DNA of 21,638 nt from Anaerolineales bacterium (lineage in GTDB: Bacteria; Chloroflexota; Anaerolineae; Anaerolineales; Villigracilaceae): assembly GCA_016789485.1 (NCBI GenBank), contig JAEURE010000010.1:1-21638 (forward strand), in the 5' to 3' direction. The notes under the pieces were generated by a model, which did no database searches, was not told the origin of the DNA, and saw only the letters and a program-made list of their open reading frames with translations. Below, piece after piece: positions 744 through 12,056 of this stretch. Every line of letters begins with the position of its first letter. Position 1 is the stretch's first letter. Both the position numbers and the translations under genes were made by a program.

Positions 744-810
744 AATTAAGCAAATGAAATTTTATCTACATGTTAACGGGATTCAATAAAATAAACTGTA
801 GCCAAACTAG

Positions 811-883
811 TGGGCCCGGCAGGATTCGAACCTGCGACCAAGCGATTATGAGTCGCCTGCGCTAACCGCTGCGCCACGGGCCC
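811..883 (-). tRNA. tRNA with CAT anticodon, probably tRNA-Ile2
   Basis: The minus strand folds as a complete cloverleaf: acceptor GGGCCCG/CGGGCCC, D arm GCGC/GCGC, anticodon arm GGCGA-CTCATAA-TCGCT, T arm GCAGG-TTCGAAT-CCTGC and discriminator A. The anticodon is CAT. The anticodon arm is the same as I remember for E. coli ileX, whose C34 is changed to lysidine by TilS so that it reads AUA as Ile. I therefore favour Ile2 over elongator Met; there is no initiator-type 3-GC anticodon stem. CCA is not encoded (the genomic bases are CTA), so it must be added after transcription. It is co-oriented with and downstream of tRNA-Gly(TCC). Confidence 0.9.
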
Positions 884-949: not shown

Positions 950-955
950 AAACAG

Positions 956-1027
956 AGCGGGAGATGGGATTCGAACCCACGAATATCAGCTTGGAAGGCT
1001 GATGCCTTACCACTTGGCGACTCCCGC
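956..1027 (-). tRNA. tRNA-Gly(TCC)
   Basis: The minus strand folds as a 72-base cloverleaf: acceptor GCGGGAG/CTCCCGC, a short D arm, anticodon stem TCAGC/GCTGA with loop CTTCCAA (T33, anticodon TCC, A37), T arm GTGGG-TTCGAAT-CCCAT, and discriminator T as usual for glycine. It would read GGA and GGG. CCA is not encoded. It is the promoter-proximal gene of a two-tRNA minus-strand unit, and the -10 box of its promoter ends 9 bases upstream. Confidence 0.95.
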
Positions 1028-1117: not shown

Positions 1118-1194
1118 GCTTCCGTAGCTCAGTGGATTAGAGCGCTTGCTTGCGGAGCAATAGGTCGCAGGTTCGAGTCCTGCCGGGAGCACCA
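1118..1194 (+). tRNA. tRNA-Arg(GCG)
   Basis: The cloverleaf has acceptor GCTTCCG/CGGGAGC (one T-G pair), D arm GCTC/GAGC, an anticodon loop TTGCGGA with T33, anticodon GCG and G37, T arm GCAGG-TTCGAGT-CCTGC, discriminator A and an encoded CCA at 1192-1194. The adenosine in the D loop (GGATTA) fits the A20 identity element known for bacterial tRNA-Arg. The first anticodon-stem pair (C27/T43) does not match. GCG would read CGC and CGU. Most bacteria use ACG, deaminated to ICG by TadA, for these codons, so this anticodon is unusual. It is the only one of the three tRNAs here with encoded CCA. Confidence 0.85.
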
Positions 1195-1195
1195 T

Positions 1196-1230
1196 AACAA
1201 AAGAAGCGGATATATCCGCTTCTTTTGTTT
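1196..1230. terminator. Perfect palindromic terminator after tRNA-Arg
   Basis: Bases 1196-1229 are a perfect 34-base palindrome (17 + 17 bp, centre ATAT/GATATATC) ending in TTTTGTTT. It starts two bases after the tRNA CCA and fits an intrinsic terminator. The -10 box of surE begins at its last base. Confidence 0.85.
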
Positions 1231-1235
1231 ATAAT
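1230..1235 (+). promoter_or_regulatory. -10 box of surE (near-leaderless)
   Basis: A consensus TATAAT sits directly behind the tRNA-Arg terminator and ends 8 bases before ATG 1244. No Shine-Dalgarno and no room for a normal leader are present. No good -35 box is visible, because the spacer region is the terminator stem. Confidence 0.55.
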
Positions 1236-1243
1236 GGATGACT

Positions 1244-2053
1244 ATGACAAAGAAAAAACCACATATCTTACTAACAAACGACGATGGCATCCGTTCCCCG
1301 GGTCTATGGGCGGCCGCAAGTGAATTATCCAAAATCGGGTATGTTACCGTGGCGGCGCCGCGTGAACAATCCACTGGCATGGGACGCAGTTTACCCAGCA
1401 CGTCAGATGGGATCATTAAAAAGGAGCAGATGCAGGTCAACGGTCAGGAATGGAGCGTGTATGCTGTTGGCGGCTCCCCGGCCCAGGCTGTCCTGCATGG
1501 TCTTTTGGAGATTGTTCCGCACAAACCGGATCTTGTCGTTTCAGGAATCAACTATGGCGAAAATGTCGGTCTGGGCATCACGATTTCCGGGACGGTTGGG
1601 GCGGCGATGGAAGCCGCTTCCCTGGGCTTCCCTGCCATGGCGGTCTCACTGCAAACAGAGGCGCATTTTCACCTGAGTCATTCGGAAGATATCGACTTTA
1701 AAACAGCGGGATATTTCACCCGTTATTTTGCAAAACTGCTTTTGGAAAAAAAACTTTCAACCGGTGTGGATTTGATCAAAGTGGAAGTGCCGGCTCATGC
1801 CACGCCTGAAACGGAGTGGCAAATGGCGAGGCTTTCACGCCACCGATACTATGAGCCCTTCCCCGTTGAAAGAGAATCATGGGATCTACCCGGCTCGATC
1901 TCGTATCGTCACGATAGCACTATTGACCATGAGCCTGAAGGCACGGATGTATATGTCTTGCGAAAGAAAAGCATGGTGGCAGTCACGCCCATCAATCTGG
2001 ATATGACTGCGCGGGTGGACTTGAACGATTTGGAGAAATACCTTCGAGCATAA
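1244..2053 (+). CDS. surE: 5'/3'-nucleotidase SurE
   Basis: SurE is a divalent-metal-dependent nucleoside monophosphate phosphatase of the cytoplasm, linked to nucleotide salvage and stationary-phase survival. The family signature is clear: LLTNDDGI near the N-terminus with the metal-binding Asp pair (Asp13/Asp14 from this start), the Ser in AAPREQSTGMG, SGINYGENVG with the metal-binding Asn, and SGTVGAAMEA. The length (269-271 aa) is normal. I prefer ATG 1244 to ATG 1238, because TATAAT ends at 1235 and transcription should begin near 1242-1244; the residues between the two starts carry no family sequence. The gene is transcribed alone and faces the cupin gene across a shared terminator. Confidence 0.95.
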   Translation: MTKKKPHILLTNDDGIRSPGLWAAASELSKIGYVTVAAPREQSTGMGRSLPSTSDGIIKKEQMQVNGQEWSVYAVGGSPAQAVLHGLLEIVPHKPDLVVSGINYGENVGLGITISGTVGAAMEAASLGFPAMAVSLQTEAHFHLSHSEDIDFKTAGYFTRYFAKLLLEKKLSTGVDLIKVEVPAHATPETEWQMARLSRHRYYEPFPVERESWDLPGSISYRHDSTIDHEPEGTDVYVLRKKSMVAVTPINLDMTARVDLNDLEKYLRA

Positions 2054-3660: not shown

Positions 3661-6204
3661 CTAAATGATTTCCTTCAAAATTGCCAGCGTTTCCGCTTTG
3701 CCCCCGTATCCATTTTCACCGCCTGGCCCCACACATGATGGACAGCCATCTTCGCATTCGCATTGACTTACCAACTCAAATGCGCGTTGAATTAACTCAT
3801 CATGAATTTCAAATAGTTTCTGGCTGAAACCAATTCCCGCAGGCACAAGATCGTACACAACGACGGATGGCAAACCTTCCACCGCCGACCACGCAGGATC
3901 GGAAAAGACTCCGAGATCGCGGGGATCGCACATCAAAAACAATGGCGCTAGGTTGCCAAGCACAAAGCCAAGCCCGCCCAACCCGCTGCGGATGCGGACA
4001 TTCTGTTCCACCTTGTGATGGCAGCTACTGCAAAGCGTGGTGAGATTTTCCAAACGGTTCGCTTGTTCGCGGTTGATGACTCCATTTTGGATGAAGGCGC
4101 GGAACGGCGTTTTGTGATGAACATCATGTTCGCGGATAGTCTCCACCGCGCCGCATACTTGACATTTGAACTGATCCCGTTTTCTGACAGCGAGTCGAAT
4201 CTTTTGCCAGCCGGGGCCGTAGTCGTTTGGGTCGTTGGTCCAAATGCCAGCGTCGCGCAGATGCGCGAGAGTCTTCTCGGAGAGAGTGAGCCAATAGCCG
4301 GTAGTCTGTAATTCGGAAGGGGGCAGATCCAGCGGTTCCTGTCCCAATGTCTCGTAGGTGAACCAGCGGATCTTGCGGAAACCAGCCACCTGTGTGGTGA
4401 CCTGAATTTCGCCGTAACTTTTTTCACAGCCTTGCGCCGCGGAATTTTCATTGACAGACAAAACCTGAATTTCAGAGCGACGCTGTGCTTCGGTGTAGTA
4501 ATCCAAACCGACGGGCACAAGCTGGGCTACATGATTTTCGAGATTGAGTTCCTGCACAAAATATTGCTGTGCCTCGTGCATGTAAATTGCACCCGGGTGA
4601 ATCATCCACATGGCAGACTCGCCATCGACAGTGCCGATGGTAATCGGGCGGCCATCTTCCGCCGTGGCTTGCAGCACAAAACTTTGCGGCGAAGCGGAAC
4701 GCAGCGAAATGTTCGCGGCGGGATAGGCGTCTTTCATCCAATAATATTTTTCATTGGAAAAATGCGATTCCTGATTGGCAACGAGGAACTCAAGATATTC
4801 ATCAAGCAATTCGTCAGAGATGCTGCCAAAACCTTCGCCTTTTTGAAATGGCAATTCAAACAAAGCACAGCGCAAATGCTCAAGAAGAATCAAAAGATGA
4901 TTCGGATTTACCAATGCCATCTCTGGCGAACTGCCGAAAAAATATTCAGGATGATGCGCGAGGAACTGATCCAGCGGATTGGGCGACGCGACCAGCAAAG
5001 ACAGCGCTGGAGCATCGCCGCGCCCCGCCCGCCCCGATTGCTGCCTTGCGCTTGCGATGGTGCCTGGATACCCGACAAGGATCGCCGCGCCAAGCCCGCC
5101 AATGTCAATTCCCAGTTCAAGTGCGTTCGTGGCAACTACGGTTTTGACAGAGCCGTCGCGCAAGCCTTGTTCGATTTCGCGGCGTTGCGCGGGGAGATAG
5201 CCAGAGCGATAACCGCGAATTTGATTTACAACTTGTGATTTACGATTTTCGATCGGCGAATCGGGATGATGTCCTTGAAGATAGGTGAGAATAATTTCCA
5301 CACTTCTCCTCGTCCTTGCAAACACCACGGATTGAATATCCCGCGCAAGCAGGTGACTTGCAAGACGCACACTTTCCAACAAGGCGCTTTTTCGCAAACC
5401 AAGAGCCGCGTCTGTTACAGGCGGGTTATAGATGATGAAATGCCGTTCGCCGCGTGAAGAGCCGTCGTTGTCAATAAGCTCAACTTCTTCTTCGATCAAT
5501 TTCTCAGCAAGCTCTTTGGGGTTTCCGATGGTCGCAGAAGCCAGAATGAATTGCGGCTTTGCACCGTAGAAACTTGCCACGCGTTTGAGTCTGCGCAGGA
5601 CATTGGCAACATGCGACCCGAAAACTCCGCGATAGGTGTGCGCTTCGTCAATGATGATGAATTTAAGATTGGAGAAGAAATCGCTCCAGTTGGCGTGGTG
5701 CGGAAGAATACCTGTATGCAGCATGTCAGGGTTGGATAAAACGATACGGGCATTTTTGCGAATGAAGGGTCGATTGGATTGGGGTGTGTCGCCATCGTAA
5801 ATGGCAGGTGCCAAGTGCCAGATTTCAAGCTTCAGATTTGCGAGTGTGGATAGCTGATCTTGTGCGAGAGCTTTTGTGGGAAACAAATACAATGCGCGTG
5901 CTTCAGGGTTATGCAGCATTGTCGAAAGCACAGGCAGGTTGTACGAAAGAGTCTTTCCGCTGGCGGTACCTGTGGCAAGGATGATATTTTTGCCAGCTCG
6001 GGTTTGATTCCATGCCGAGAACTGATGGGAATACAGCGAGTGGATGTTGCGGGTGGATAATGTCTCTCGAAGCGCATCAGGCAGATCGGTCGGAAAGGGA
6101 TGCGTCTGTGCGGCGCGCGCAGGAGTTGTCCGCCAGGCGAAAAAGTTCGGCGCAGTGTCGGGATCCTCCTTCCAAAAATCAAATAAAGCGAAAAGGTTGT
6201 TCAA
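3661..6204 (-). CDS. MrfA/YprA-type DEAH helicase with inserted HNH domain
   Basis: This is an 847-residue superfamily-2 helicase. RecA domain 1 has Walker A ATGTASGKT (77-85), FPTKALAQDQ (108-117), SNPDMLH (157-163), DEAH (186-189) and SAT (223-225); RecA domain 2 has VFARTRR (294-300), ATNALELGID (358-367) and QQSGRAGRG (388-396). The C-terminus carries a DUF1998-type cysteine cluster CECEDGCPSC (815-824). This arrangement matches MrfA/YprA, a 3'-5' DNA helicase known in Bacillus for mitomycin-lesion repair. Between the halves, residues about 665-735 form an HNH-type zinc module: CQVC (681-684), DVHHKTP (694-700), Asn720, and CSSCHH (725-730). The frame opens with TTG at 6204, because a TAA lies two codons upstream and no earlier start exists. 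There is no Shine-Dalgarno, and the previous gene stops 6 bases away, so translational coupling is likely. No MrfB-like exonuclease gene is adjacent. Confidence 0.9.
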   Translation of the reverse strand: MNNLFALFDFWKEDPDTAPNFFAWRTTPARAAQTHPFPTDLPDALRETLSTRNIHSLYSHQFSAWNQTRAGKNIILATGTASGKTLSYNLPVLSTMLHNPEARALYLFPTKALAQDQLSTLANLKLEIWHLAPAIYDGDTPQSNRPFIRKNARIVLSNPDMLHTGILPHHANWSDFFSNLKFIIIDEAHTYRGVFGSHVANVLRRLKRVASFYGAKPQFILASATIGNPKELAEKLIEEEVELIDNDGSSRGERHFIIYNPPVTDAALGLRKSALLESVRLASHLLARDIQSVVFARTRRSVEIILTYLQGHHPDSPIENRKSQVVNQIRGYRSGYLPAQRREIEQGLRDGSVKTVVATNALELGIDIGGLGAAILVGYPGTIASARQQSGRAGRGDAPALSLLVASPNPLDQFLAHHPEYFFGSSPEMALVNPNHLLILLEHLRCALFELPFQKGEGFGSISDELLDEYLEFLVANQESHFSNEKYYWMKDAYPAANISLRSASPQSFVLQATAEDGRPITIGTVDGESAMWMIHPGAIYMHEAQQYFVQELNLENHVAQLVPVGLDYYTEAQRRSEIQVLSVNENSAAQGCEKSYGEIQVTTQVAGFRKIRWFTYETLGQEPLDLPPSELQTTGYWLTLSEKTLAHLRDAGIWTNDPNDYGPGWQKIRLAVRKRDQFKCQVCGAVETIREHDVHHKTPFRAFIQNGVINREQANRLENLTTLCSSCHHKVEQNVRIRSGLGGLGFVLGNLAPLFLMCDPRDLGVFSDPAWSAVEGLPSVVVYDLVPAGIGFSQKLFEIHDELIQRAFELVSQCECEDGCPSCVGPGGENGYGGKAETLAILKEII

Positions 6205-6210
6205 AGTTTA

Positions 6211-7230
6211 TTATGCCGTCTGCACTGATGGTTCTTCGCCGCCCGTATGCAGGGAGCGGAACGCCCATGCGCCGACCCCAAACGGGACCCAAAATGTGAT
6301 TGTGCGATAGATCAATGTGATGAGAACAGCCTGACTCCAATTTACATTCAAAGAAGCCAGCGCAATTGGCATAAGGCCTTCCACCACACCGATGCCCGAA
6401 GGTGTGGGTGAAACGATCAGGAAAAGATAGGCGAGTGAAAATCCTGCGATAATGGTGCCTGCCGAAAACGGGACTTCAAAGGATAAGAATGCGCAGATCA
6501 AAATCAGCATCAACAAACCTTTGTTAAAAATCCCCCAGAGGATCGGTCTGATCAAACTTGTTGGTTTTTCTGTCAACCCTGCAAAGCCTTCTGAAATTTC
6601 GTGCGCGTACGATCTTGCGCGAACCTCGCTCAGGTATTCGTTCTTGCGAAAAAATTTCACCAGGCGGTTGATCATCCGTGCCATATTTGCGAGCATATTG
6701 CCGAGCTTTTCCTCTGAGCGATAACCGAGGTAAAGAACAAAAGCATAGGTGATTGCAATGCAAAGCAGAAAAAACGAAGCGGAAATTTCGCCGGCGTTCA
6801 GGTCGTTGCGGCGGACGAGCACGATCAGTCCCAATGCGAGGATGACTAGAAATGCGGCTTGATCAAGCAGGAGGAACAAGGCTGCGGCAACAGTAACTTT
6901 GCCTGCGGGATGTCCACGCCTGCGCGCTTCTGACGCGAAGAGCGCGACTCCTCCCACGCCCGCAGTGGGTGCCACCACGTTGACAAAGTTCGCGGCTGTG
7001 GCAATGCGGCTCAAGGTTGATATCCCCTCATGCACTCCCAGCAAATGAAAAATGGACTGGTACATGCGTCCTGTGCTGATGAACCAGATCAATTGAATGA
7101 AAATGGCAAGGATGAAGAATCCCAAATGTGCTTTCCTCAAGGTCAGCATGATCGTTTCCAGTTCGCTGAAACTGATTGCAATAACAGCTATGCCAAGGAA
7201 TAAAATAATAATGGGAGCCAGTTTTTTCAT
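6211..7230 (-). CDS. YbhN/LPG-synthase-type membrane protein (UPF0104)
   Basis: This is a polytopic membrane protein of about 339 residues and eight hydrophobic segments. It matches the lysylphosphatidylglycerol-synthase transmembrane / YbhN (UPF0104) family, seen in the conserved VNVVAPTAGVGGVALFA (about 86-102) and SPTPSGIGVVEGLM (about 277-290). It lacks the soluble aminoacyl-transfer domain of MprF, so it should act alone as a lipid or lipid-linked-substrate flippase or transport-like protein; the substrate is unknown. I place the start at ATG 7230 rather than GTG 7233: a minus-strand TATAAT ends 7 bases before the ATG, giving a leaderless message with no Shine-Dalgarno. It heads the operon with the helicase, MFS and cupin genes, whose functions do not obviously match. 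Confidence 0.85.
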   Translation of the reverse strand: MKKLAPIIILFLGIAVIAISFSELETIMLTLRKAHLGFFILAIFIQLIWFISTGRMYQSIFHLLGVHEGISTLSRIATAANFVNVVAPTAGVGGVALFASEARRRGHPAGKVTVAAALFLLLDQAAFLVILALGLIVLVRRNDLNAGEISASFFLLCIAITYAFVLYLGYRSEEKLGNMLANMARMINRLVKFFRKNEYLSEVRARSYAHEISEGFAGLTEKPTSLIRPILWGIFNKGLLMLILICAFLSFEVPFSAGTIIAGFSLAYLFLIVSPTPSGIGVVEGLMPIALASLNVNWSQAVLITLIYRTITFWVPFGVGAWAFRSLHTGGEEPSVQTA

Positions 7231-7237
7231 CACAGGG

Positions 7238-7243
7238 ATTATA
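7238..7243 (-). promoter_or_regulatory. -10 box of the YbhN-helicase-MFS-cupin operon
   Basis: On the minus strand TATAAT is followed by CCCTGTG and then ATG. The transcript should begin within a base or two of the start codon. It sits just downstream of the terminator of the preceding gene. Confidence 0.6.
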
Positions 7244-7248
7244 CATAA

Positions 7249-7278
7249 AAAAAGAGCAGGCTTATGCCTGCTCTTTTT
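7249..7278 (-). terminator. Terminator of the YugP-like peptidase gene
   Basis: A 13-bp stem (7249-7261 with 7266-7278, core GAGCAGGC/GCCTGCTC) closes a 4-base loop and ends in a U-run on the minus strand. It lies 12 bases after the peptidase stop codon. The run is symmetrical, so it could also work on plus, but no plus-strand gene ends here. Confidence 0.9.
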
Positions 7279-7290
7279 ACTTTTCGTTGT

Positions 7291-7986
7291 TTAATCTCTG
7301 CGCCTGCCGCCACCAACAAGAGTGACGTAGTACAGCAATTGCAGGATGGCCGTGATGAGACCGGCTACGTAGGTCAATGCGGCGGCGTTGAGAACATTGT
7401 TGACACCGCGCATCTCTTCGTCAGTTTGGATGATGCCGGTTTGGGCAAGCAGTTGTTTCGCGCGGGAGGAGGCGTTAAATTCAACGGGCAGGGTTGCAAG
7501 TGCAAAGACTGCGCCGCCGGCAAAGACCATCACTCCGAGCCAGGCGAGTTCTGTAAAACGCAGGAACAAGCCGATCATGATCAGGAACCAGCCAAGGTTC
7601 GAGCCGATGTTGACGATGGGCACAAGCGCCGAGCGGAATTTGAGCGGGAAGTATTCCTCCGCATCCTGCATGGCGTGGCCGAGTTCGTGTGCGGCAATGG
7701 CGAGCGAGGCAACCGATGTGCTGTTGGCAACTCCGTTTGAAAGAAAGAGGGTCTTGTTGCGCGGATCGTAATGGTCGGTCATTTCACCTGCGACGCCCTG
7801 AATCTGTACGCCGTACAAGCCGCCGCTGGAGATTAATTTCTGGGTGGCCTGGACGCCGGTCAGGCGGCTTTGGGCAGGGACTTTGCTCCATTTGTTATAG
7901 GCTGCCTTGACATACCATGACGTGATCGCCATAAGTATGAAGGCTGGGATCATGTATATCAAATAGGTCGGGCTGAATAGAAACAT
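7291..7986 (-). CDS. YugP-family zinc metallopeptidase
   Basis: This 231-residue membrane protein matches the YugP-type neutral zinc peptidase family (Zn_peptidase_2). It has an N-terminal membrane segment (about residues 8-24), the HELGH zinc motif with His100, Glu101 and His104, two further hydrophobic segments (about 122-166), the family signature LPVEFNASSRA whose Glu169 is probably the third zinc ligand, and a C-terminal segment ending in GGGRRRD. The conserved DPRNKTLFLS before the active site is also typical. Members are membrane-bound peptidases of unknown target. The start ATG has AGGAG five bases upstream. It follows the S41 protease gene after 12 bases, so two membrane proteases are probably made together. 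Confidence 0.9.
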   Translation of the reverse strand: MFLFSPTYLIYMIPAFILMAITSWYVKAAYNKWSKVPAQSRLTGVQATQKLISSGGLYGVQIQGVAGEMTDHYDPRNKTLFLSNGVANSTSVASLAIAAHELGHAMQDAEEYFPLKFRSALVPIVNIGSNLGWFLIMIGLFLRFTELAWLGVMVFAGGAVFALATLPVEFNASSRAKQLLAQTGIIQTDEEMRGVNNVLNAAALTYVAGLITAILQLLYYVTLVGGGRRRD

Positions 7987-7998
7987 GTTTCTCCTTTT

Positions 7999-9258
7999 TT
8001 ACTTTCCGATCATTTCCATCAAAACTTCCACGGCTTTATCAAGCTGCGGATCAAGTTCGGCGGTTCGATCTTCATCAGTGATTTCCACTGGATAATCAGG
8101 GGTCAATCCTATCTCGTGGATGGTGTTTTCGTTCGGCGTAAGCCATTTGGCAATGGTAATGCGGACTGCACCATTATCGTTGGAGAGCGGAATCCAGTTT
8201 TGTACGGAACCTTTTCCGTATGAAACTGTGCCGACCAGTTTGGCGCGGCCAAGGTCTTGCAAGGCGCCGGCGACAATTTCAGAAGCGGAAGCCGAACCTT
8301 CGTTGATGAGTACTACCATCGGGATATTAACATCGGTGGCGAGTCCGCCGGGAATTACATCATATGTGGTGCGGGTACCGTCGCCGTATTCTTCATAAAG
8401 GACAACGCCTTCTCCAACGAATTGCGAGGTGACTTCCACAGAAGTGGATAAGAATCCGCCGCCATTATTTCGCAGGTCTAGGATAATTCCGCTCGGGTTT
8501 TGTGCCATCAAATCCTTGAGGGCGGCAAGAAGTTCAGGTGTGGTGTTGCTGCCAAAAGTTGTCACTTGCACATAGGCAATATTATTTTCGAGCATTTTTC
8601 CACTGGCAGATGCAATGGTGATCTTTTGACGGACGATATCGAGTTCGATCAAATCCGCTTCGCCTTTGCGCAAGATCGAAAGATGGACGGTTGTTCCGGC
8701 TGGGCCAAGCACTTTCAAACGGGCTGCTTCCGCCGTGGAATCGGTCATGTCTTCACCGTCAATTTCAATGATCTGGTCGCCGGGTTTCAGCCCCGCGCTT
8801 TCGGCAGGGGAGCCGGGGATCGGGCTGATAATAGTGAGATAGGGAGTGGTGGTGTCTACATAAGCGCCGATGCCTTCATAGGAACCATCGAGGCTTGCAT
8901 TTGCATCTTCATAATCCTGCGGATCCATATAGGATGAATGCTGGTCGCCGAGCGCCTGCATCATACCGCTGATAGCGCCGCGCATAAGCGCGATATCATC
9001 CACTGGTTGGTCTACGTAATTTTCGTGGACGAGATTCCATGCCTCCCAAAATGGGGCAAAGAGGGTCTTCATGTCTTCTGGCGTGGCAGATTGCTGGTCC
9101 GGGGAGGTGGTCGGCGGCGCCGAGACAGCAGGTTCCTGCAGGCCGGGGATTCCCGCAAACGGTACAAGATGACCTGTCACAAAGCCGCCCGCGAAAGAGC
9201 CAAGCGCGACTACGATCACAACCAGGACGACCAGGATAGTTTTTAAGGTTTTATTCAC
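7999..9258 (-). CDS. C-terminal processing protease, PDZ-S41 family
   Basis: This extracytoplasmic serine protease belongs to the CtpA/CtpB (tail-specific protease) family. From the chosen start it has a signal anchor (about residues 2-28), a low-complexity linker, a PDZ domain (about 127-211, with SPAESAGLKPGDQIIEIDG) and an S41 catalytic domain with LDLRNNGGG, the nucleophile Ser324 in NEGSASASEI and the general base Lys349 in YGKGSVQ, 25 residues apart as in the family. The longest frame begins at TTG 9270, but that codon lies inside TTGGAGG. GGAGG stands 5 bases before GTG 9258, so I take the GTG as the start (419 aa). The YugP-like peptidase follows 12 bases later. CtpA-like proteins trim or degrade envelope proteins from the C-terminus. 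Confidence 0.93.
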   Translation of the reverse strand: MNKTLKTILVVLVVIVVALGSFAGGFVTGHLVPFAGIPGLQEPAVSAPPTTSPDQQSATPEDMKTLFAPFWEAWNLVHENYVDQPVDDIALMRGAISGMMQALGDQHSSYMDPQDYEDANASLDGSYEGIGAYVDTTTPYLTIISPIPGSPAESAGLKPGDQIIEIDGEDMTDSTAEAARLKVLGPAGTTVHLSILRKGEADLIELDIVRQKITIASASGKMLENNIAYVQVTTFGSNTTPELLAALKDLMAQNPSGIILDLRNNGGGFLSTSVEVTSQFVGEGVVLYEEYGDGTRTTYDVIPGGLATDVNIPMVVLINEGSASASEIVAGALQDLGRAKLVGTVSYGKGSVQNWIPLSNDNGAVRITIAKWLTPNENTIHEIGLTPDYPVEITDEDRTAELDPQLDKAVEVLMEMIGK

Positions 9259-9360
9259 AAGAGCCTCCAATTTGGCTAAATTACTCTGAAAGATACCATT
9301 CAGGGATTAATGTTTGCTGAATTCTTTATACGATTTTCGTAAGAGGGGAAGTACGCTTAA

Positions 9361-9603
9361 TTATTCAGAATCCCCCGTTCGGTCTTTCTTACTTTTCTCC
9401 AACTCCTGTATCCGCTGGCGCAATTCTTCCATAGACTCGTCTTTCTTTTTAGGAGAAGTGTTCAAAGAGCGGCTTAATGTCTCCAGAAAGCCCTTTTGAT
9501 TGGAGCGTGCTGCTCCCCTCGCGACGGCATACATAATGAAATTCGAACCAAGCACTAGTAGGATGAAAAGCAAAGCGCCGATTAATACTTTATTTTCTTC
9601 CAT
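9361..9603 (-). CDS. Small one-TM protein with charged coil
   Basis: I do not recognise this 80-residue protein. One hydrophobic segment (about residues 7-27) is followed by a basic stretch and a strongly charged, heptad-like helix (about 52-73, KKKDESMEELRQRIQELEK), suggesting a membrane-anchored coiled coil facing the cytoplasm. The gene begins 3 bases after the HAD hydrolase stop codon, with a GGAG eleven bases before its ATG, so translation probably depends on coupling. Its operon position supports it being real. Codon use matches its neighbours. Confidence 0.65.
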   Translation of the reverse strand: MEENKVLIGALLFILLVLGSNFIMYAVARGAARSNQKGFLETLSRSLNTSPKKKDESMEELRQRIQELEKSKKDRTGDSE

Positions 9604-9606
9604 GGG

Positions 9607-10242
9607 TTATTCGTTCTCCAAAATATCCGCCAGATCATTCCAGTCCGTCAGGTGAGCGTCTGCGGCGCTGTCATCAAAGGAACTGTGAGCCAAAATGCTG
9701 AACCAGCCTGCCTCACGCGCGGCGCGCGTGGTGCGGTGGATATCGTCTATCATCACACATTTCGATGGGTCGGTTTCCCCTGCAACGTTCATCGCGATCT
9801 GGAATGACTCGGGCATGGGTTTGCAATATGGCGCGACAGTATTTACATCTACAACTGCTTCGAAGAGGTCGGCAAGTTCCAGGGCGGTCAACACTCTTTT
9901 CGCGTGGGCGCTGTCTGCATTTGTAAAGATCAGCTTGCGGGTTGGCAGCGAGGCGATGATCGAGCGCAGAGTCGGGTTGGGAGTCAGGTATTCCTTCAAT
10001 GGCAGGTCATGCACATAGGCGAGGAAATCATCTGTGTCAATATTATGGTTCGCTTGCAAGCCACGCATGGTTGTGCCGTATTGCAAAAAATATTTTTCGC
10101 GCAAGGTCCCGATCTGATCTTCGGGAATATGCATGCGCTCACGCATGTATTCATTCATGCGTCCCTTGATGGCTTTCCATAAACCGGTTGTGGGTGGATA
10201 TAAGGTGTCGTCGAGGTCGAAGAAAATGGTGGTAAATCGCAT
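9607..10242 (-). CDS. HAD-family hydrolase, pyrimidine 5'-nucleotidase type
   Basis: This 211-residue haloacid-dehalogenase-superfamily phosphatase resembles the Sdt1/pyrimidine 5'-nucleotidase group. Motif I is FFDLDDTLYP with nucleophile Asp9 and acid/base Asp11; motif II is IFTNAD; the motif III Lys lies in YCKPMPESF; motif IV is CVMIDD. The helical cap lies between motifs I and II. It would remove phosphate from UMP/CMP-like or other small phosphates; the substrate is inferred from the family. The open frame runs back to 10278, but TATAAT followed by exactly six bases and then the ATG of MRFTTIFFDLDDT sets the start at 10242 and implies a leaderless message. It is divergent from mutL and leads a two-gene unit with the small one-TM protein. 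Confidence 0.88.
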   Translation of the reverse strand: MRFTTIFFDLDDTLYPPTTGLWKAIKGRMNEYMRERMHIPEDQIGTLREKYFLQYGTTMRGLQANHNIDTDDFLAYVHDLPLKEYLTPNPTLRSIIASLPTRKLIFTNADSAHAKRVLTALELADLFEAVVDVNTVAPYCKPMPESFQIAMNVAGETDPSKCVMIDDIHRTTRAAREAGWFSILAHSSFDDSAADAHLTDWNDLADILENE

Positions 10243-10248
10243 CAGGTC

Positions 10249-10301
10249 ATTATATATTACTGCCTGCAAATTGAACAATTTGTGAGCGTCGTGGGTATAA
10301 T
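10249..10301. promoter_or_regulatory. Divergent leaderless promoters of HAD gene and mutL
   Basis: The minus strand has TATAAT (10254-10249) six bases before ATG 10242, and the plus strand has TATAAT (10296-10301) six bases before ATG 10308. Between them lies AAATTG-AA-CAATTT (10268-10281), a perfect 6+6 palindrome that supplies the candidate -35 boxes of both: TTGAAC on plus with a 19-base spacer and TTGTTC on minus with an 18-base spacer. Confidence 0.7.
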
Positions 10302-10307
10302 CGCGCC

Positions 10308-12056
10308 ATGCCTATTCGATTGCTTTCCTCCGAAGTCTCATCTCAAATCGCCGCCGGTGAAGTGGTGGAACGTCCAGCTTCAGTTGTGAAAGAGTTGACC
10401 GAAAATTCACTGGATGCAGGGGCGAAAAATATTTCCATCGCCATTGAAGATGCGGGGCGGACATTGATCGAAGTGGCGGATGATGGACACGGCATTCCCG
10501 CGGCTGAATTGGAACTGGCGGCCTCGCGTCATGCAACTTCGAAGTTGATTCAGTCCGAAGACCTCTTCCACATCCAGACATTGGGGTTCCGAGGCGAAGC
10601 ATTGGCTTCGATCGGCTCTGTCTCTCACATGACCATCACTTCACGGGTGGAGTCAGCAAAGGAAGGCGCGCGCCTGAAAGTGAATGGCGGCGTTTCAGGC
10701 AAAGTGGAAAAAGTTGGCGCACCCGTGGGAACTGTGCTGCGTGTGGAAAATCTTTTTTATAACGTGCCTGCTCGTTTAAAGTTCTTGAAAAGCGATGTGA
10801 CCGAACGCCGCGCCATCGACTCATTGGTCACGCGCTATGCGTTGGCCTATCCAAATGTCCGTTTCAAAGTAACCGACGGAAAACAATCTACATTGCAAAC
10901 CGCTGGCGACGGCGATAGACGCGCGATTCTTGCGGCTTTGTATGGCGTGGATGTTGCCAAGCAAATGCTTGAAGTCATGGCTTCGGAAGACGGTTTTTCA
11001 TTATCTGGTTTTATCAGCCCCACTTCATTGACACGCTCCAATCGAAAAGAGATCACCTTCTTTGTAAACGGCCGCTGGGTTCAGGAATTTTCCCTGACCA
11101 CGGCTTTACTGCAGGCGTATCACACCTTGTTAATGGTGGGGCGTTATCCGCTGACCACTTTGTTTTTGGATATTGCGCCTGAAGATGTGGATGTGAATGT
11201 ACATCCCACCAAGGCAGAAGTCCGTTTTAGGAATCAGGATAAGGTTTTTAGTTTTATGCAGCGTTCGGCGCGTAAAGCTTTGCTGGCGTACACACCTGTC
11301 CCGTCCGTTTCGCCGCAGTTGTGGGGATCGCGCCCTGCGCCTTCGGAGCCGCGAGAGATTGGGATCGATTGGAGCATCGCACACGATGAGTCTGTGACGG
11401 TGGAAACACAGGCTGCGGATGAAAGCATTTCACCGTCAACGGCCAATGGTCAACGGTCTTTTTCCACAGGTGTTCCTCTCCTTCGCCTCATCGGACAGAT
11501 CGGTTCAACATATCTCGTTGCCGAAGGTCCGGATGGACTGTATTTGATCGATCAACATGCTGCGCATGAAAGAGTGCTGTTCGAGAAATTAATGGCACAA
11601 CATGACACAAAAAATATTCCATCGCAGGCGCTGCTTTCACCAGAGGTTGTCACTCTGCCGCCGCAATCTGCAAAGACGCTTACTCAGCAGCTGCCTTTCT
11701 TGAATCATTTTGGTTTTGAAGTGGAAGAATTTGGCACGAATACGTTTCAAGTCCGTGCCATGCCGACTTTGTTTTCCGGCGGCGACCCTGCCTCCGCGCT
11801 CAGGGCTTTGGTGGAGGATTTTGAAGAGGACGAGAGTCCGCTTCAGGCGGAGGTGGAGGCGAAGCTTGCGGCGCGCGTCTGCAAACGGCTCGCTGTCAAA
11901 GGCGGGCAGACTCTTACTGTCGATGAACAGCGCAGCCTCCTGAACGATCTCGAAGCTTGCCAATCTCCGCGCACCTGTCCGCATGGCAGGCCGACGATGA
12001 TCCATTTATCCGTCGATTCGCTCGAGCGTCAATTTGGCAGAAAAGGCGCGCGGTAA
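10308..12056 (+). CDS. mutL: DNA mismatch repair protein MutL
   Basis: MutL couples mismatch recognition by MutS to strand removal. The N-terminal GHKL ATPase is intact: IAAGEVVERPASVVKELTENS (14-34, Glu32 catalytic), ADDGHGIP (57-64), RHATSKL (74-80) and GFRGEALASI (93-102). The C-terminal domain has the endonuclease motif DQHAAHERVLFE (415-426) and CPHGRP (557-562), so this is a nicking MutL as in bacteria without MutH, not the E. coli type. The length (582 aa) is normal. The start is ATG 10308, six bases after TATAAT; no Shine-Dalgarno is present. No mutS is in the window. It is divergent from the HAD hydrolase, and the next gene starts 61 bases downstream behind its own -10 box. Confidence 0.97.
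   Translation: MPIRLLSSEVSSQIAAGEVVERPASVVKELTENSLDAGAKNISIAIEDAGRTLIEVADDGHGIPAAELELAASRHATSKLIQSEDLFHIQTLGFRGEALASIGSVSHMTITSRVESAKEGARLKVNGGVSGKVEKVGAPVGTVLRVENLFYNVPARLKFLKSDVTERRAIDSLVTRYALAYPNVRFKVTDGKQSTLQTAGDGDRRAILAALYGVDVAKQMLEVMASEDGFSLSGFISPTSLTRSNRKEITFFVNGRWVQEFSLTTALLQAYHTLLMVGRYPLTTLFLDIAPEDVDVNVHPTKAEVRFRNQDKVFSFMQRSARKALLAYTPVPSVSPQLWGSRPAPSEPREIGIDWSIAHDESVTVETQAADESISPSTANGQRSFSTGVPLLRLIGQIGSTYLVAEGPDGLYLIDQHAAHERVLFEKLMAQHDTKNIPSQALLSPEVVTLPPQSAKTLTQQLPFLNHFGFEVEEFGTNTFQVRAMPTLFSGGDPASALRALVEDFEEDESPLQAEVEAKLAARVCKRLAVKGGQTLTVDEQRSLLNDLEACQSPRTCPHGRPTMIHLSVDSLERQFGRKGAR

Follow-up and report, generated by a model that had tools for sequence, protein, structure and literature searches.

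An HNH nuclease-like domain inserted in a MrfA-type DEAH helicase that is common in Anaerolineae

The stretch of DNA analysed here (hereafter the window) comprises 21,638 nt of contig JAEURE010000010.1 from the Anaerolineales bacterium assembly GCA_016789485.1, numbered from its first letter, and it encodes a MrfA-like DEAH helicase that carries an HNH nuclease-like domain just before its zinc-binding domain (HNH-MrfA; Table 1). We favour, with a probability of about one half, the reading that an HNH endonuclease was added to the helicase of a MrfAB-type excision-repair system, where it perhaps supplies the incision. In Bacillus, MrfA repairs mitomycin C damage and unwinds in the 3'-5' direction, and Mrf repair is independent of UvrABC, with MrfB as the exonuclease; to our knowledge, no endonuclease has been assigned to this route.

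The body of the protein is that of MrfA, as a preliminary description made from the DNA letters had proposed. Its two RecA domains keep Walker A, DEAH and motif VI intact and are followed by the MrfA zinc-binding domain (MZB) with its four cysteines in a CxCxxxCxxC cluster (CECEDGCPSC, residues 815-824), and Pfam recognised DEAD, Helicase_C and MZB, with ResIII likewise over its cut-off. The top solved structure by sequence was Bacillus subtilis MrfA (6znp; 675 bits, E 1.3e-201), whose residues 20-633 and 648-744 aligned to residues 20-642 and 742-840 of our protein with a gap at the insert; the HNH module, of about 83 residues, sits between these two matching parts and the corresponding stretch is missing in 6znp. 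The NCBIfam model TIGR03817 (helicase/secretion neighborhood DEAH-box helicase) scored 664.2 bits, below its curated cut-off of 874.1, which leaves the protein outside that family. The inserted segment matched the HNH family PF01844 above the Pfam cut-off of 21.4 bits and holds the complete module with all the signature positions first described, namely CQVC (681-684), DVHHKTP (694-700), N720 and CSSCHH (725-730), with C681/C684 and C725/C728 as predicted zinc pairs and H696, H697, N720 and H729 as the H-N-H residues. The reading frame and these motifs stood as first given; the insert coordinates needed correction, since residues 665-735 correspond to positions 4000-4212, while the pair first given, 4000-4197, corresponds to residues 670-735.

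A predicted model of residues 636-846 (predicted local distance difference test score, pLDDT, 86) and a structure comparison made with it show beta-beta-alpha elements at the HNH motif, as expected of a beta-beta-alpha metal fold, and in the model the HNH helix continues into the MrfA zinc domain; the whole-protein model, built on an alignment of 17 close relatives, had a pLDDT of 35. The HNH part also aligned to the GVE2 HNH structure 5h0m (E 0.0024). Fold matches to LuxS, M16 peptidases and lactate dehydrogenase were judged unrelated to it. The preliminary description had named two results that would speak against an HNH domain, a model lacking this fold and a segment that is merely the ordinary zinc linker of MrfA homologues; neither occurred, because the elements are present in the model and the segment is absent from B. 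subtilis MrfA and from all 32 insert-less MrfA-like loci that were fetched.

Conservation was assessed on 110 homologous open reading frames (ORFs) from 111 loci, some rows being one contig under two locus identifiers. Two of them (L102 and L109) are gapped at the insert because their contigs end there, and in 108 of the 108 that cover it C681, C684, H696, H697, P700, N720, L721, C725, C728 and H729 were kept, which places the HNH segment beyond chance. A chance motif or a degenerate linker is ruled out by this invariance together with the absence of the segment from the 32 MrfA-like loci. Among 43 diverse copies (pairwise identities below 90%, with a minimum of 37% and a median of 51%), invariant columns amounted to 16 of the 65 well-filled ones in the HNH domain, 10 of 77 in MZB, 30 of 188 in the first RecA domain and 6 of 137 in the preceding beta region. 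The motor residues K84, D186, D367, R392 and R395 were invariant in the same copies; E187 and H189 were so in all but one copy each. The four MZB cysteines were invariant both in these 43 and in 32 insert-less copies. Judging from its invariant catalytic positions, the HNH domain is probably an active nuclease. The alternative that it is catalytically dead and, stabilised by zinc, helps the helicase only structurally or in gripping DNA is unlikely: zinc binding would need the four cysteines of the two CxxC pairs, which are indeed invariant, yet none of the 43 copies departs from H696, H697, N720 or H729, while neighbouring positions such as 698, 699 and 730 vary.

Selection on the domain resembles that on the helicase. 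The median ratio of nonsynonymous to synonymous substitution (dN/dS) in close pairs, which are not independent of one another, was 0.147 for HNH (243 of 287 pairs usable), 0.143 for the helicase (287) and 0.089 for MZB (247), and as ratios of sums the values were 0.176, 0.193 and 0.137, respectively; the HNH domain is under purifying selection, at a level similar to the helicase. Furthermore, PF01844 was carried by 116 of 120 homologues (the best 120 of 8000 scored, the window's own protein included), and the other four (P0011, P0012, P0013 and P0016) show the motif when aligned, with longer loops. One relative (L072, about 8200-8458) shows an apparent frameshift in its helicase just past the HNH domain, with the HNH residues retained.

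The distribution of the fusion was followed within Chloroflexota. The phylum sample consisted of 301 genomes including the window's own, 38 of them of the same class (taken as Anaerolineae from the titles of named loci) and 263 of other classes. HNH-MrfA was found in 35 of the 38 (G046, G240 and G262 were without it) and in a single one of the 263 (G011, with a listed contamination of 8%); weaker matches in the 263 genomes were not the HNH-MrfA fusion, and among the matches listed for other classes MrfA typically stops near residue 643. In a class sample of 199 genomes, which partly overlaps the phylum sample, the HNH fragment was matched in 136 at E 1e-15. Additionally, the 80 named loci (best 80 of 109) bore Chloroflexota-type titles, many of them Anaerolineales or Anaerolineae and one Herpetosiphon (L049). 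The fused arrangement, first regarded as non-standard, is not peculiar to the window's genome: in its class it is the form that MrfA commonly takes, and it is already visible in domain databases as precomputed Pfam domains.

In a tree made with FastTree, the rows that bear the insert did not form a single clade. A second tree (64 rows) was built on the protein without its insert, leaving out L172 (broken by Ns), L187 (a 101-base stretch) and 12 more insert-bearing rows thinned by hand (L004-L007, L010, L012-L014, L031, L049, L058 and L173); in it, the 25 ordinary insert-less MrfA formed one group with a Shimodaira-Hasegawa-like approximate likelihood ratio (SH-aLRT) support of 99. The insert label requires two changes on this tree, as a distant paralogue group without the insert roots within the insert-bearing side, on branches below star level. 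The insert may have been gained once, or gained and then lost, both histories being possible given the weak placing of that group. Its members (L168 from G088, L169 from G011, and L179-L183) are MrfA-like with a GGLHAAEH-type MZB start and have no mrfB within the fetched stretches; G088 and G011 carry HNH-MrfA too.

A mobile-element reading was rejected, as at the protein level at least 80% of residues 600-847 was matched by 0 of 81 plasmid and 0 of 59 phage matching records. A scan of viral contigs, with both search patterns drawn from the MZB part only, found no relative. The nearest separate HNH modules in the plasmid and phage records were in haloarchaeal virus and plasmid genes (for example HJTV-4 OP374082.1 and Natrinema CP031304.1; 48.8% over 78 residues), a likeness that indicates kinship of modules and not origin. 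A separate HNH gene beside insert-less MrfA was also looked for and rejected: a motif scan of 40 loci (209,236 bases) gave 7 matches, all within insert-bearing helicases.

The preliminary description had suggested a built-in nuclease function in place of the separate MrfB of Bacillus, noting that no mrfB-like gene lies beside the helicase. The latter is true of the window's contig, on which no mrfB gene was found, but not of the genome, because one of its three PF13482 matches, P0122 (a 416-residue reading frame on a separate 4,543-base contig), is an MrfB homologue that matches MrfB 8un9 with E 2e-34 over residues 99-274 and retains DTET, NGKAFD and HN..MD. In the phylum sample an MrfB match was present in 36 of the 38 class genomes and in 35 of the 35 with HNH-MrfA; both genes were missing from G046 and G240, MrfB alone was present in G262, and the MrfB copy of G064 has an in-frame TGA. 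With an MrfB threshold of E 1e-25, the 199 genomes of the class sample divided into 118 with both, 18 with HNH-MrfA only, 14 with MrfB only and 49 with neither; this positive association, computed with no correction for shared ancestry or for gaps in the assemblies, has an odds ratio of 23 and a Fisher p of 5e-19. The HNH-MrfA and mrfB genes are direct neighbours on the same strand in G104, G168, G200, G216 and G290 and lie at most 6 kb apart in 16 of the 118, and mrfB stands alongside 20 of the 25 ordinary insert-less MrfA loci, which were hand-picked with stretches set after the MrfB matches had been seen. That a single polypeptide does both jobs and replaces MrfB, as the contig without mrfB and the 18 of 136 HNH-MrfA genomes without a match (some assemblies being incomplete) might suggest, is thus highly improbable in view of the homologue in the same genome, the co-occurrence and the adjacency. 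All these data, together with mrfB beside insert-less MrfA, indicate that HNH is an addition to the MrfAB pair, not a substitute for MrfB. The joint absence of both genes from G046, G240 and the 49 class-sample genomes looks as if they were gained or lost as a pair.

The setting of the helicase gene looks like an ordinary chromosomal one. Among the 80 named loci, whose flanks were examined over 6 kb on each side where the contig allows, one gene order recurs, from a divergent MutL through HAD, S41 peptidase, Zn peptidase and LPG synthase to the helicase. Upstream of the helicase we counted LPG synthase in 54, Zn peptidase in 40, S41 in 39, HAD in 32 and MutL in 30, and downstream MFS in 25 and MrfB in 3. 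The neighbours that Pfam annotates are ordinary genes. A role of the fusion as an anti-phage defence helicase-nuclease, which had also been raised at first, is very unlikely in this context, as the block formed by the gene and these neighbours is a recurring one, the 25 PADLOC matches listed of 67 all fall within residues 44-431, the generic motor part, and the gene is spread over the class unlike patchy defence genes, although 49 of 199 class genomes have neither HNH-MrfA nor MrfB. Regarding the classical route, 30 of the 31 relatives searched had a UvrC above the cut-off, so HNH-MrfA is not a UvrC stand-in in relatives. The window's genome (a 75% complete assembly) gave a weak UvrC match only, and no full-length UvrC was found in it. 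Near the start of the window, the ORF at 1129-1440 (minus strand) overlaps tRNA-Arg and is probably spurious.

Table 1. Features of the window, with residue numbers of the helicase where they apply.
Feature	Position	Strand	Remarks
MrfA-like DEAH helicase with inserted HNH domain	3661..6204	-	847 aa, TTG start
RecA domain 1 (DEAD), residues 59-230; K84, DEAH 186-189	5515..6030	-	Pfam PF00270, E 5.6e-31
RecA domain 2 (Helicase_C), residues 287-395	5020..5346	-	Pfam PF00271, E 7.9e-13
Hrq1-type winged helix (WHD_HRQ1), residues 432-504	4693..4911	-	Pfam PF22982, E 6.6e-7, above its cut-off
Inserted segment, about residues 655-737	3994..4242	-	Borders by eye on alignment
HNH nuclease-like domain, residues 681-732	4009..4164	-	Pfam PF01844, 29.5 bits, E 8.4e-7
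MZB (DUF1998; MrfA zinc-binding domain), residues 748-825	3730..3963	-	Pfam PF09369, E 1.6e-20
LPG synthase, Zn peptidase, S41 peptidase, HAD, divergent MutL block	6211-12056		Upstream of helicase; recurs in many named relatives
tRNA-Met	810-883	-	
tRNA-Gly	955-1027	-	
tRNA-Arg	1118-1194	+	

In the mechanism that we propose, the HNH domain would have entered a MrfA-type helicase directly ahead of its zinc domain, at an early point in the evolution of the class. The helicase would open damaged DNA, the HNH domain, tied to the zinc domain through the continuous helix, would use a bound metal ion to nick one strand, and the separate exonuclease MrfB would degrade from the nick, an added incision function in MrfAB-type excision repair that would run beside UvrABC. 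Its most specific form, in which HNH-MrfA would itself make the incision in an excision repair independent of UvrABC, as one polypeptide that opens the helix at a lesion, nicks it and passes the end to MrfB, is more tentative. Another use of the cut, in a different helicase transaction such as the resolution of branched DNA or stalled forks, is suggested by analogy and seems rather improbable, as the kinship of the helicase to MrfA and the association with MrfB point to excision repair. If the proposal is true, this class has fused to its helicase the incision step, to which no enzyme is known to be assigned in the MrfAB route of Bacillus. A MrfA that is widespread, has an apparently intact HNH endonuclease domain and is mostly still accompanied by MrfB lends itself naturally to asking if incision is a normal step of the route, and proteins filed merely as 'DEAD/DEAH box helicase' may be nucleases.

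Lastly, the protein differs from the known systems that it resembles. B. subtilis MrfA (YprA; 6znp, 6znq, 6zns) lacks the HNH insert, and, in contrast to Bacillus, mrfB is not beside the helicase gene in the window's genome, where P0122, the homologue of B. subtilis MrfB (8un9), is the candidate partner; MrfB itself is an RNase H-like exonuclease encoded by a separate gene and unrelated to HNH. Among HNH nucleases, GVE2 HNH (5h0m), Cas5-HNH (8zlu), EcoKMcrA (6ghc) and Cap5 (8fmf) are none of them built into a MrfA helicase, and H696 of HNH-MrfA sits at the Asp position of 5h0m. An analogy in way of working is ZRANB3, a eukaryotic SNF2-HNH protein that acts on branched DNA and stalled forks and likewise joins a DNA motor and an HNH nuclease in one polypeptide; it belongs to another helicase family and has its HNH domain at the C-terminus, whereas that of HNH-MrfA is internal. 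HNH-MrfA would be a further way of coupling DNA opening to cutting.
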